64,000 bases of DNA from Treponema vincentii (GTDB lineage: Bacteria > Spirochaetota > Spirochaetia > Treponematales > Treponemataceae): NCBI RefSeq assembly GCF_018336815.1, contig NZ_CP050497.1, positions 682,001-746,000 of the forward strand, read 5' to 3'. Within the stretch, counting starts at the first letter, position 1; each line of letters starts with the position of its first letter. The translations under genes and the position numbers were made by a program. Of the stretch, positions 2,103 through 61,563 are shown piece by piece. Below the pieces are notes generated by a model. That model saw only the letters and a list, made by a program, of their open reading frames with translations. It searched no databases and was not told where the DNA came from.

Positions 2103-3267
2103 ATGCAAAACTATTTTGATTATATCGATGATGATGAACTCTGCGCATTTTTTTGCAGGCGCTGTAAAAATTCCCAGTATTAATCCGCCGGGGAACGAAG
2201 CACCGATGGTGAAATATATAGAAGATTTTTTACAAGCGAATAAGATTGAATATGAGCGGATTCCGGTTGAAGGAAGCCGCTGTGATATTGTCGCTCGGGT
2301 GTGCGGGAAAACCCGTGAAAATAGCATCATCTTTACCGGACACATGGATGTCGTACCGGTTTCCGACGAAGAGCGGAAACGATGGAACTTTAACCCGTTC
2401 GGCGCCGAAACACGAGACGGTATTCTTTACGGCCGCGGCAGCAGCGATATGAAAAGCGGACTGACAGCTGCGCTTTATGCAATGTCTGTTTTACAGCGGC
2501 ACGGTATTGTTCCGCCGACTGATATTATCTTTGCCGCGACAATCGATGAAGAAAACTACATGAAAGGCTCGAAGAAGCTTTTATACTCTCCGCTGTTTGA
2601 CGGCGCCCGCTCGTTAGTGGTGTGCGAACCAACCGATTTAAAGCTGTGCATAAAAGGGAAAGGGAGAACATGGGCGGATGTCTGTGTACGGGGTAAAACA
2701 GCTCACGGTTCACAAGCAGGCGCCGGAGATAATGCGATTTACACAGCAATCAATTTAATAGAAAAGATTAAGCATACCGAGTTGTCGGACTATTCTTCGG
2801 CGGAAAACGGGGAGTCCTTTTGGCGGACACTGGCGATACAGGCGGGAGTAGAACCGCAGGTAGTCCCTGATACTTGCATATTTACCGTTGATGCGCGGCT
2901 TGCCGTCGGTCATCCCATCGATGCAGTATGGGCGCAGCTGGATAAACTGATTGCATCATTGCATCAAGAAGTTCCTACCGCTCAAGTGTCGTATACCGTT
3001 ATCGATAGGCGCCCTTCGTGGGCAACGGCGGAAAGCGAACCGTTGGTACAGCGCTGCAAAACAGCGCTGGAAGCCGCCGGCTTACCGTATATCCCGGACA
3101 TCTTTGCGGGTTCTACCGACGGCAGCATACTAGTAAAGCAGGGACTCGTTCCCGTTATCATCGGCCCAGGCGATCTTGCCGTCGTCCACCGCGAAAACGA
3201 GCATATTAAGCTTTCTCAACTTTATCGGGCGGCGAGGTTGTATCTTTCCATAATGCTTACCTTTTGA
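2103..3267 (+). CDS. M20-family metallopeptidase (ArgE/DapE-like), frameshifted near the start
   Basis: A cytosolic zinc hydrolase of the ArgE/DapE/CPG2 family, cleaving an acylated amino acid or small peptide; the exact substrate cannot be read. Zinc-site motifs are intact: GHMDVVP (His, about residue 75), GRGSSDMKSG (Asp, about 111), DEE (catalytic Glu, about 143), CEPTD (about 171) and the C-terminal His in VVHRENEH (about 366). The natural start ATG 2103 (MQNYFDYIDDDELCAFF) leads into T7 at 2148-2154; deleting one T joins it to the long frame and gives 387 residues, normal for the family. As written, translation of the long frame could only begin at 2116 (TTG) or 2128, without a proper ribosome site. 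It is the first apparently chromosomal gene after the cassettes. Confidence 0.85.
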
Positions 3268-3296
3268 AAATATACGGCGTATCTACTTCGTCGCTC

Positions 3297-3387
3297 GTTC
3301 AGCGAAGTACATCCCTGTACTTTGCTGAACACAAGTTTGACCAGTGTCAAACTTGTTTCTGCTTAATACGCGCGGCATCCGTGCCGC
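3297..3387. repeat. cluster of three hairpins with constant-type loops
   Basis: Between the M20 and helicase genes lie three stem-loops: a 15-bp stem (one wobble) 3297-3311/3316-3330 with loop TCCC, a perfect 10-bp stem CAAGTTTGAC/GTCAAACTTG (3332-3355) with loop CAGT, and a 6-bp stem GCGGCA/TGCCGC (3372-3387) with loop TCCG. The same order of hairpins, with different stem sequences, occurs at 42434-42536. The genes are convergent here, so the cluster may terminate transcription, but it lacks a clear T-run. Confidence 0.6.
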
Positions 3388-3407
3388 TACTGAAAATCCT
3401 CAACGTA

Positions 3408-40865: not shown

Positions 40866-42257
40866 TCAGACATCCTCTAATTGTTTTACAACCGATACGG
40901 TCTTGTTAATAAGTTCTTGCAAACTTACCGTTTTATTTCCCCGTAAATAGGTTATAATTTCATCATCAAAAGGATCCGTCCAGTGCTCTTCGATTCCTCG
41001 TGTGCCTAACTTTGCACCAAGCGCAGCTCCCAGCTGTGCGGCGTTACAATCGACATCTTGACCGCACATTGCAATATAGTGCATAACATCGTTAAAATTA
41101 TCTTTGCCGAAATACAACGCAACCACCTCTGCCGCCGCATTCGGATACGCATGGATCCAGTTATACCGCTTATATTTTTCTTCGCATGCGGCCCATGCCT
41201 CATAAAAATCATTTTTTTTCATACACTGTGCTAATGCAAAGTGAAGCACGGAAGCATATTCCGAATCCTTAGGGATACAGGAGACTGCTTTTTCCAAACA
41301 TCTCCGCATAGGCTCTTCCCCGTATGAAAGGCTGACCAAAACGGCATTAAACACCTCTCCGAGGATTCCATTCCCGTGGTGCGAAATTTCCGCATCGCGC
41401 CATGCAAGTAGTGCAGCCTTATGAGGATTTAACGGGGCTACCTGACCGCATACGGCGCCGCGCATCTGTGCGCCTATCCATTCACGGTACGGATTCCTAA
41501 ACATACCGCTTTCAGGGGGATACATCCCTCTGCGTAAATTATCCAATGCAACCTGTTCGGCAGACCAGCCGCAGGGTATTAACTCCAGCCATTGGTCGGC
41601 AATATCGGCGCTTGTCGGTATCCCCTGCACTTTGCAGCACGCCTCCAGAAATGCTATCTCGTATGTTATATCATTGTTGTAAGTATTCGGGGTACGCACA
41701 TAAGTACGGATTTCGCCGAATTTTTTTTGCAGCTGTGCCGTTGTATATCCCTCAAGCGCCGTTCCCAAGCCTCCGCCGCATAAACGACCGAGCCATGCCG
41801 CCTTTGTTTTATCGTACAACACAGCATTTGGTACTGTTTCTGTGGCTGCTTCGGGAAACTCGATTACTTTTTCATATTCACTAAAGTTTTGATACAGCTT
41901 ACTTTTCCAATAGTCGCTTGAAGTATCGCTCGGACACATAAAAAGGATATTAAATATGCGGGCAGTAATCCTTTGCAGCGCCTTCATATCATTCCGCTTT
42001 AGTGCGGAAAGCCCCTCCGGAAACAATTCCTCCGCGGCACTTACATCGCACCCCAGCGCTTCTATGGACTGGACTGCCGCAATCACCAGGCTTTCAGGAG
42101 CATGAGAGCAGGGCGTATGGCTTGCCCAATACATACGAAGTTGATCGTCCGCCTGCTTTTCAGCAGCATTCGAAGCTGCCCATGTTTGCTCGTCTTCTGA
42201 CAATACCACGGGAACAGCATTTTTTGTTAAATCGTAAATATACTCCCACGCTTTCAT
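40866..42257 (-). CDS. ADP-ribosylglycohydrolase-fold protein
   Basis: A 463-residue protein of the ADP-ribosylglycohydrolase (ARH/DraG) fold. Residues about 150-450 hold the family motifs: KAAWLGRLCGGGLGTALEG, TYNNDITYEIAFLEA (metal-binding block, with Asn-Asn-Asp in place of the usual Asp-Asp-Thr region), HHGNGILGEVFNAVLVSLSY and QDVDCNAAQLGAALGAKLG (second metal site). The N-terminal 140 residues are an extra helical domain. The same type of gene is often placed beside sugar ABC transporters, as here, where it follows lplA after a repeat-rich gap. The altered metal residues leave activity uncertain; a nucleoside or glycoside hydrolase role is possible. ATG 42257 follows GAGGATGAT. Confidence 0.72.
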   Translation of the reverse strand: MKAWEYIYDLTKNAVPVVLSEDEQTWAASNAAEKQADDQLRMYWASHTPCSHAPESLVIAAVQSIEALGCDVSAAEELFPEGLSALKRNDMKALQRITARIFNILFMCPSDTSSDYWKSKLYQNFSEYEKVIEFPEAATETVPNAVLYDKTKAAWLGRLCGGGLGTALEGYTTAQLQKKFGEIRTYVRTPNTYNNDITYEIAFLEACCKVQGIPTSADIADQWLELIPCGWSAEQVALDNLRRGMYPPESGMFRNPYREWIGAQMRGAVCGQVAPLNPHKAALLAWRDAEISHHGNGILGEVFNAVLVSLSYGEEPMRRCLEKAVSCIPKDSEYASVLHFALAQCMKKNDFYEAWAACEEKYKRYNWIHAYPNAAAEVVALYFGKDNFNDVMHYIAMCGQDVDCNAAQLGAALGAKLGTRGIEEHWTDPFDDEIITYLRGNKTVSLQELINKTVSVVKQLEDV

Positions 42258-42420
42258 ATCATCCTCACATCGGCTCTAACTTTATGAAAACATTTTTAGA
42301 AAACATTTTCATAACTCTATATAAAGGATATCCCCGAAATTTCCATCTGTCAAATGTTTTTATCGCCCTTCCAGTTATCGTCCAAACAGCCAAGCCATCC
42401 CTTTTTTCCGTTAGCCCCGC

Positions 42421-42740
42421 AGCCGAAGAATGTACGTCCTGTACTTCTCTGCCGATGTACATCCTTGTTACATCGGCAGAGAACAAGTTTTGTGCCAAAA
42501 CTTGCTACTGATTTATTTCCCGCCCATCCGTGGGCGTTCTGACGACGAGTTCGCGTAGCGAACTCGATACTGCGTGGAACCACCGCCATCCATGGCGGTT
42601 TTGCGCAGCCAACGCTTTTGAAAATAGACGATGCAGATACAAGGAGCCTAGCCGAAATAAAGCGGAGGCGTACTTGTTGTACGTCGAGCATTTATTTCGG
42701 CGTAGCGACAACGCAGATGCGTCGTATATTTTCAAAAGGC
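42421..42740. repeat. dense palindrome cluster in the 480-bp gap after lplA
   Basis: No gene is seen in 42258-42739. The gap holds at least five hairpins: a 16-bp stem with one bulge and loop TCCT (42437-42483), AACAAGTTTTG/AAAACTTG with loop TGCC (42482-42505), CGCCCA-TCCG-TGGGCG (42521-42536), GAGTTCGC-GTA-GCGAACTC (42547-42565) and ACCGCCA-TCCA-TGGCGGT (42582-42599). A larger inverted repeat joins CTTTTGAAAATA (from 42612) to TATTTTCAAAAG (before 42739), enclosing CGAAATAAA/TTTATTTCG. Confidence 0.65.
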
Positions 42741-50615: not shown

Positions 50616-51803
50616 CTACCCTTCAGTAGAAGCGGTAATTTCACCATCGGCGAGCCTAATGCGGAGTTCGCGGGCAGCTACTGCATCCTGCGCACGGCGG
50701 AGTACGAACCCCGTCTGCCGGTTGTAAACGATAGAATATCCTCTATTGAGAATTTCCTGCGGGTTTGCCCCTTCAATGGTTTGTTTCAATAAAGCAAGCC
50801 GGTGCTTTGTGTCGGTTAGCCGCGCCTGCATCGTGTACAGCAGATTTTCTTTTGCATCGTCAAGGCGCATTAAAAGCGGCTGCTCGATGCGGCGGAATTT
50901 CATCTCAAGCGACTCCGGTGTAAAACCTTTAATCGTAAGCCGTATTCTTTCCACTGCGCGGCCGATACTGTGCAGCATATCGGATTGTATTTGAGTAATG
51001 GTATCGGTGATTTCATCTAAGACCGGTACGGCAAGTTCGGCGGCAGCAGACGGCGTAGGCGCGCGTACATCCGCTGCAAAATCGGTGAGCGCCCAGTCGA
51101 TTTCGTGCCCGACTGCGCTGATGACAGGAATTTCAGAAGCGGCCACAGCGCGGACAACCGCCTCATCGGAGAAGGGCAACAGGTCTTCCAAAGAGCCGCC
51201 GCCTCTTCCGATAATGATAAGCTCCCCGAGCTTATACCGATTGGCGGTTTCCAGCTGCCGTGCCAACACAGGCGCCGCCTCAGCTCCCTGTACGGGAGCG
51301 GGAAGCACGGTAACACTTACCGTGCGGTTCCTGCGCGAAAGTACCGTGAGGATATCGCGCAGGGCGGCACCCGTTGGGCTGGTAATCACAGCGATACGGA
51401 GCGGGAAAAACGGCAGCGGGCGCTTTCTGCTTTGGTCAAAAAGGCCTTCGCGCGCGAGTTTCTGCTTCCGCTCTTCCAGCATTTTCAGGATAGCGCCTTC
51501 TCCGGCAAGCTCCATCGTTTCAACGATTATCTGATATGAACCCCGCTGCTCATATACCGACAGCGAACCTGATACCACAACCTTGAGCCCGTCTTTCGGC
51601 TCAAAGCCGAGCGTCCATGTTCGGCCTTTGAACATAACCGCTTGCAGTGCGGCTTTTTCATCTTTTAGGGTAAAATAGAGGTGTCCGGTGCTTGAAGGGC
51701 GGCAGTTGGAAATCTCCCCCGCGATGCGGAGGGAGGTAAAATTTTGCTCAAAAAGCGACTTGATAATGCCGGTAATCTCTTGTATCGAATATACGTGATC
51801 CAT
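50616..51803 (-). CDS. xseA: exodeoxyribonuclease VII large subunit
   Basis: A 395-residue XseA, catalytic subunit of ExoVII, which degrades single-stranded DNA during repair. N-terminal OB fold (TSLRIAGEISNCRPSSTGHL YFTLKDEKAALQAVMFKGR), then the catalytic core: RIAVITSPTGAALRDILTVL SRR, IIGRGGGSLEDLLPFSDEAV, ISAVGHEIDWALTDFAADVR APTPSAAAELAVP; a helical coil and C-terminal NPQEILNRGYSIVYN. The partner xseB is not adjacent. ATG 51803 has no clear Shine-Dalgarno sequence. Confidence 0.95.
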   Translation of the reverse strand: MDHVYSIQEITGIIKSLFEQNFTSLRIAGEISNCRPSSTGHLYFTLKDEKAALQAVMFKGRTWTLGFEPKDGLKVVVSGSLSVYEQRGSYQIIVETMELAGEGAILKMLEERKQKLAREGLFDQSRKRPLPFFPLRIAVITSPTGAALRDILTVLSRRNRTVSVTVLPAPVQGAEAAPVLARQLETANRYKLGELIIIGRGGGSLEDLLPFSDEAVVRAVAASEIPVISAVGHEIDWALTDFAADVRAPTPSAAAELAVPVLDEITDTITQIQSDMLHSIGRAVERIRLTIKGFTPESLEMKFRRIEQPLLMRLDDAKENLLYTMQARLTDTKHRLALLKQTIEGANPQEILNRGYSIVYNRQTGFVLRRAQDAVAARELRIRLADGEITASTEG

Positions 51804-61384: not shown

Positions 61385-61563
61385 AACCTGTTCGATGACT
61401 TCGTTGCCGAACAGGTCGACGAGTTCTAAATCGCACAGATAGCACCTTAAAATGCAACAGTTGAACAAAGTGTGAACTTTGGAAACTGCTGTATTGATGT
61501 ACAGAACGTGCATACGTTAATAAGCGACATCGTCAATTTACATCATCCGTGGTGTAAATTGAC
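61385..61563. repeat. palindromes before the hsp20 terminator
   Basis: ACCTGTTCG/CGAACAGGT (61385-61415), then a half-copy of the 44489 hairpin on the opposite strand (TTCTAAATCGCACAGATAGCA), and TCAATTTACATCA/TGGTGTAAATTGA with loop TCCG (61533-61562; one wobble). No gene is seen in 61283-61596. Confidence 0.55.

Follow-up and report, generated by a model that had tools for sequence, protein, structure and literature searches.

Several palindromes in the window (the whole stretch of DNA that was analysed, 64,000 nucleotides, corresponding to 682001-746000 of one 2,711,688-base contig) combine differing stems with a nearly constant loop, which raises the question of what keeps the loop constant. 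Hairpins with TCCN loops had been described in the first-pass annotation at 42421..42740, 3297-3387 and 61533-61562, and all of them were present at these places, with the loops TCCT, TCCG, TCCA, TCCC and TCCG. The constant part of the loop belongs to the minus strand, where it reads NGGA and not TCCN. On this strand, the chain at 42432-42599 is made up of three hairpins with an ANGGAN loop, one with CAGGACG, and two spacers; folding of 42420-42605 gave -78 kcal/mol as compared to -51 kcal/mol for shuffled sequences (z -7.3). The features are compiled in Table 1. Another GGA hairpin at 51603-51628 was set aside as likely chance and left out, because it lies within ORF 50616-51803 and has a mismatch beside the loop.

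Table 1. Features in the window, and TD-2-bearing sites at which species differ (G0 coordinates)
Feature	Position	Strand	Remark
GGA hairpin H1, ACCGC-CATGGATG-GCGGT	42582..42599	-	first of degenerate TD-2 unit
Spacer hairpin H2, CGAGTTCGC..GCGAACTCG	42546..42566	-	between GGA hairpins
GGA hairpin, CGCC-CACGGATG-GGCG	42521..42536	-	
TD-2 RNA match, 35.4 bits	42517..42599	-	under 48.7 cut-off; part of longer chain
Second spacer hairpin, CAAGTTTTG..CAAAACTTG	42484..42504	-	
Long GGA hairpin, loop AAGGAT	42447..42481	-	one bulge
Short hairpin GTAC-AGGAC-GTAC	42432..42444	-	contains CAGGACG, CsrB-type repeat form CAGGA(U/A/C)G (available text of PMC7652899)
Outer inverted repeat, ends CTTTTGAAA..TTTCAAAAG	42615..42738		no strand; MITE-like, TD-2 often adjoining
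TD-2 RNA unit, 56.9 bits	3293..3388	-	over cut-off
GGA hairpin H1, GCGG-CACGGATG-CCGC	3372..3387	-	of 3293..3388 unit
Spacer hairpin H2	3331..3356	-	of 3293..3388 unit
Long GGA hairpin H3, loop AGGGAT	3296..3331	-	of 3293..3388 unit; one A.C stem mismatch
Solitary long GGA hairpin, loop ACGGAT	61532..61563	-	one C.A mismatch on GGA strand
TD-2 presence/absence site	G0 2569427-2569591		between species
TD-2-bearing insert in G001	at G0 2653094		
TD-2-bearing insert in G005	at G0 1178464		
TD-2-bearing replacement in G001	at G0 2623481		

The excess of TCCN among palindrome tetraloops, proposed earlier as a check against controls, was above chance. In 464 kb (the window plus 20 stretches, of which L006 and L007 lay off the even grid and were chosen after hits were known there), TCCN/NGGA loops accounted for 37 of 253 tetraloop palindromes with stems of at least 6 pairs (4.1 simulated) and for 28 of 106 with stems of at least 7 pairs (0.5 simulated). 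Ten first-order Markov simulated sequences served as controls. Genome-wide, CATCCNTG occurred 520 times as compared to 81 times for the reversed pattern, and GTACANGGANGTAC occurred 118 times with no reversed occurrence. Among 256 CxNxxxNG cores searched in 424 kb (the window plus 18 grid stretches), CANGGANG ranked first with 39 hairpins of at least 4 pairs, at a mean of 1.3 per core. The runner-up CANCCGNG had 16 hairpins, among them opposite-strand readings of CANGGANG hairpins.

According to covariance matches, the palindromes of the window are GGA hairpins of TD-2 RNA (Rfam RF03162), a known RNA family, and the earlier term 'undescribed system' is wrong for the family. Folds and loop tallies gave a layout of three successive hairpins with GGA loops in the outer two. 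At least 147 matches were obtained in the genome at an E-value of up to 0.001, a lower bound with 150 of 699 candidates scored, and 136 were over the membership cut-off of 48.7 bits (covariance score). The unit at 3293-3388 is a member over the cut-off with the three hairpins in the same order, whereas the unit at 42517-42599 is below the cut-off and part of a longer chain. TD-2 was detected in six of seven genomes of the genus, with none in the 1.1-Mb genome G002. A family survey, in which filtering was stricter and 31 candidates were scored per genome, gave a match in 69 of 118 genomes, in 45 of them over the cut-off. In T. lecithinolyticum, the nearest named relative for one window protein (83%), the neighbouring gene was present and TD-2 was not found at an E-value of up to 0.01 in 17.7 kb.

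TD-1 RNA (RF03155), which shares clan CL00124 with TD-2, occurs too; the TD-1 RNA at L006:3306-3430(-) adjoins a TD-2 unit and is, by eye, without an ANGGAN hairpin loop. Both families reportedly stem from surveys of the Weinberg group. A Flavo-1 RNA match (RF01705, 46 bits, cut-off 42) with TD-2 units beside it was observed at L007:893-1029(-). The Rfam entry states only 'TD-2 RNA' of type sRNA; the literature search yielded no described function or binding protein for TD-2 and, among the matches listed, no link between TD-2 and CsrA. TD-1, TD-2 and CsrA are absent from the main text of Weinberg 2010 (PMC2864571), and TD-1 and TD-2 are not named in the available text of a periodontitis metatranscriptome paper (PMC7160235).

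For reading of the loops, centres were placed from the outer stem only, and copies with a fully paired outer stem were kept. The H3 loops (121 of 147 copies) read C119 A120 N(C64 A45 T8 G4) G119 G120 A121 N(T68 C30 A17 G6) G120, and the H1 loops (124 of 147 copies) read C112 A111 N G113 G121 A115 N(T85 C29 G8 A2) G118. ANGGA was present in 117 of 121 H3 loops and 106 of 124 H1 loops, part of the remainder being out-of-register centres, and no common letters were found in the H2 loops (94 of 147 resolved). The loop is a hexaloop ANGGAN with the closing pair C-G. The A and T previously assumed to close a tetraloop do not form a pair: 120 of 121 H3 loops have the A, and its supposed partner takes all four letters in the tally given above. 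Both are regarded as unpaired because paired letters would change together, and these do not. The stems, said to have no sequence in common, do share some, since the long hairpin is mostly GTACA..GTAC-like beside the loop; a typical H3 is GUACANGGANGUAC.

The relatives G005 and G001 (92% and 87% identity, respectively, at one window gene) were used for comparison between species. Copies with their flanks were aligned for 146 of 147 TD-2 matches, resulting in 72 spanning alignments of 50 copies; some of these are alignments of close paralogs, not of orthologs. Among the 26 best (identity of at least 80%), differences were found at 27 of 1338 stem positions (2.0%), 72 of 919 linker positions (7.8%), and 327 of 2858 near (11.4%), 674 of 6538 mid (10.3%) and 811 of 6981 far (11.6%) flank positions. 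For 24 alignments with flanks differing by 11.6%, 607 of 629 stem pairs were unchanged, 16 had single and 6 had double changes, and 7 more had gaps. Of 45 CANGGANG loops, nine had a change at the first N and five at the second (14 of 90 in total); the remaining six positions had each changed in 0 of 45 (0 of 270), with flanks diverged by 10-12%. The reference loops were picked for having CANGGANG and the requirement for spanning the unit favours conserved units; the contrast of N and non-N positions inside the same loop suffers little from paralogs and selection.

As judged by its letters, the GGA loop matches the published CsrA/RsmE recognition element. In the available text of PMC7652899, the SELEX consensus is RUACARGGAUGU, in which ACA and GGA are invariant, 44 of 55 SELEX ligands have a loop of six bases and pair AC with GU, the RsmE hexaloop is ANGGAN with variable N, and the CsrB repeats are CAGGA(U/A/C)G. 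An A-N-G-G-A-N hexaloop closed by C-G, as defined there, is what the TD-2 hairpins contain. The genome encodes a CsrA protein of 73 amino acids (Pfam, 87.2 bits) in a gene (L123:1435-1656) overlapping fliW (L123:1650-2096; Pfam, 138.6 bits). Its sequence has L4 and R44, which are RNA-binding CsrA residues according to the same text (PMC7652899), and matches the RsmE chain of entry 2jpp at 2.2e-13. A motif search for CsrA targets in flagellin leaders found none in the sequence examined. The presence of csrA does not predict that of TD-2, since 37 of 40 family genomes were found to have csrA, as compared to 69 of 118 with TD-2 matches, and G002 has csrA but no TD-2. The constant loop very probably has a protein reader, for which CsrA is the best candidate. 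Of the three ideas in the first-pass annotation, the structure-reading protein is best supported, with CsrA as the specific candidate.

The same loop was encountered in another family of the phylum. Among 247 phylum genomes, TACANGGANGTA was strongly enriched in this genome (146 vs 2) and in G125 of the other family (90 vs 1), and was near control in most others. Milder enrichment was observed in G147 (30 vs 6), G157 (35 vs 8), G221 (25 vs 3) and G267 (27 vs 4), which possibly carry further repeats of this kind. The hairpins of G125 (L183-L212) are located in a different dispersed repeat, TCCCGAGCGCGTACATGGATGTACGCTC.., with the same CANGGANG hexaloop; mostly, 3-5 perfect pairs adjoin CANGGANG, and several other stems occur too. 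Scanning of 20 of the 30 G125 loci gave no TD-2 match at the cut-off. Because the Rfam match is missing and the linkers differ, the two repeats are taken as unrelated by descent. Outside the selection pattern, 28 G125 loci contained 15 CANGGANG hairpins, as compared to an average of 0.4 for the 256 cores, and only the opposite-strand readings CANCCANG (15) and CANCCTNG (14) came near this count.

In 934 kb, 259 hairpins formed 117 GGA clusters, 77 of which had two or more hairpins. These multi-hairpin clusters were on one strand in 53 of 77 cases, and 87 of 142 neighbouring hairpin pairs were on the same strand at a distance of 60-74 nt. By ORF calls, 142 of 147 TD-2 copies are intergenic. A fixed orientation to the neighbouring genes was not found in tandem gaps (36 same, 39 opposite, p 0.82); an mRNA cis-element of fixed orientation is not supported by this result, and TD-2 is not a fixed UTR element because its orientation to genes is random.

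Four picked sites differ between species by TD-2-bearing inserts or replacements (Table 1). At the locus of the long chain, three species share the gene and the outer repeat and differ in the number of units. This genome has a different downstream gene and different stems there, the H1 and H2 stems of G0 being unlike those of G005 and G001 at the same place. In G005, a TD-2 match of 73.2 bits is located beside the same gene as the 42517..42599 unit. Synteny is broken at 42257-42740, where G005 and G001 share another downstream sequence. The arrays seem to exchange whole units and to lie at a synteny break. The ends of the MITE-like repeat, CTTTTGAAA, occur 128 times vs 18 times reversed; an inward end was located within 300 b of 40 of 117 clusters (3% at random places), and both ends at 11 of 117 (0.55% at random places). 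The copy at 42615-42738 has its own variable inner stems, and the terminal core is also found at 3261. In stretches of G000, a unit of 39 bases, TGTACAACAGTTGAAGATGGTTCAAATGGTCTCACAGTC, was noticed; it is composed of 14-mers, of which the commonest occurs 29 times.

Internal stem mismatches were counted as a test for selection on the RNA strand. The strict count, which leaves out 15 duplicate hairpins, gave 28 G.U, 16 A.C and 20 other mismatches in 436 hairpins (p 0.10). At positions 4-6 beside the loop, 18 G.U and 6 A.C mismatches were found, and farther out 10 of each. In the TD-2 copies of this genome alone, G.U vs A.C was 8 vs 2 in H1, 13 vs 9 in H3 and 8 vs 10 in H2. A loose count in three genomes (92 G.U vs 47 A.C) may be inflated by fixed linker letters, and for this reason the strict count was relied upon. 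The wobble test is only suggestive.

The best reading of these data, and probably the correct one, is that of mobile, recombining intergenic repeats which carry paired CsrA-type sites. An RNA copy of the minus strand would form two ANGGAN hexaloop hairpins at a distance of about 65 nt, separated by a spacer hairpin. Each loop would be a site of the CsrA/RsmE type, so that a single CsrA dimer would be expected per unit and several per array; bridging of two sites by one dimer is assumed from the literature. The protein would read the constant loop and the stem would only present it, which would leave the stems free to differ between copies. Arrays, if transcribed, may be sponges for CsrA in the manner of CsrB/RsmZ or may place a host transcript under CsrA control. 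Several observations do not fit this reading well. Strong selection on RNA should give a larger G.U excess than that of the strict count, the orientation to neighbouring genes is random, and the long hairpins far exceed most SELEX ligands in their number of pairs, which is four or fewer for those ligands in the available text of PMC7652899. In addition, G014 (99% complete, 80 contigs) has four TD-2 matches at an E-value of up to 0.001 and no CsrA hit at an E-value of up to 10, and G002 represents the reverse case.

A DNA-level mobile element, in which single-stranded DNA forms the hairpins and the element's own recombinase or transposase reads the loop, as RAYT does with REP, would make the likeness to CsrA sites a matter of chance. 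The occurrence of both orientations (together in 15 of 88 gaps), the presence, absence or replacement of units at the four sites, the nearly perfect Watson-Crick pairing of the stems, in which both kinds of wobble are rare, and the nesting in or beside the MITE-like repeat all speak for such an element. It is nevertheless rather unlikely, since an exact ANGGAN code with free N is not predicted by it, and a lineage-specific transposase would not explain the same loop in a repeat of a distant genome without TD-2 matches. The RAYT-type transposase that had been suggested as a check was not found either: Y1_Tnp (PF01797, RAYT/HUH) was detected in 0 of 7 genus genomes, with 5 of 14 controls positive, and REP/RAYT is not supported. 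From the proposal of REP-like mobile DNA, dispersal, both orientations and presence or absence between species were retained, and the RAYT/Y1 part was lost.

Arrays serving as structural 3' elements, i.e. as terminators or as exonuclease barriers like BIMEs, would need the loop letters for folding only. Convergent gaps are indeed used more often (22 of 88) than in baseline gaps of at least 150 b (15 of 111), and the folds are stable (z -7.3 and -6.0). Divergent gaps are used as well (17 of 88), and a folding role does not explain why A and GGA are invariant when the letters next to them are free, which makes this explanation improbable. The stems differ between copies and still remain Watson-Crick paired, and at the locus of the long chain G0 has other H1 and H2 stems than G005 and G001, as would be expected from the copying mechanism proposed earlier, which rewrites stems and keeps loops. 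Rewriting in place is unsupported within the species compared, with 22 single or double changes (16 and 6) against the large majority of pairs kept; whole units swapped between arrays would account better for the differing locus. With rewriting at duplication as the form left, the copying mechanism is very improbable.

If CsrA-type sites are indeed carried by these repeats, a testable function and a named protein would be available for TD-2, a family for which no function was found. It is conceivable, although doubtful, that repeats have seeded genomes with hundreds of CsrA sites, that at least two repeat families of the phylum have converged on one loop (in at least this genome together with FliW), and that the CsrA regulon is being rewired or buffered as the repeats transpose and recombine. 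A global regulator would then be titrated or redirected by mobile repeats. Cooperation of FliW and GGA RNA on CsrA would also become directly testable; in the available text of a 2020 review, joint action of FliW and GGA sRNA on CsrA is still open for any species (PMC7652899). In the available text of a Leptospira CsrA paper, an ncRNA related to CsrA is mentioned for L. biflexa, a species with fliW beside csrA (PMC8668096), which is a hint toward such joint action. The test for changes at only the two N positions could serve as an inexpensive way of screening other repeats for CsrA sites.

Among known systems, REP/BIME elements with RAYT share with the TD-2 arrays the dispersed intergenic palindromes, both orientations and the arrangement in arrays. 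They have a GTAG-type tetranucleotide before the hairpin; the repeats described here differ from them by the absence of RAYT/Y1 from all seven genomes and by the constant loop on a variable stem. Integron attC sites, which were considered too, are marked by R' and R'' boxes with an integron integrase in the vicinity. Modular repeats of the MITE and BOX type resemble TD-2 in mosaic nesting with a terminal-inverted-repeat element and in insertion polymorphism; unlike these, TD-2 itself had no visible terminal inverted repeats, and its loop letters are constrained. With the sponges CsrB/CsrC and RsmY/RsmZ, which are best known in gammaproteobacteria, TD-2 shares several GGA-loop hairpins with an ANGGAN hexaloop closed by C-G on one strand. 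These sponges are encoded by one or few dedicated genes, whereas well over a hundred dispersed units, known from DNA, are present here, and the genome contains fliW as well.
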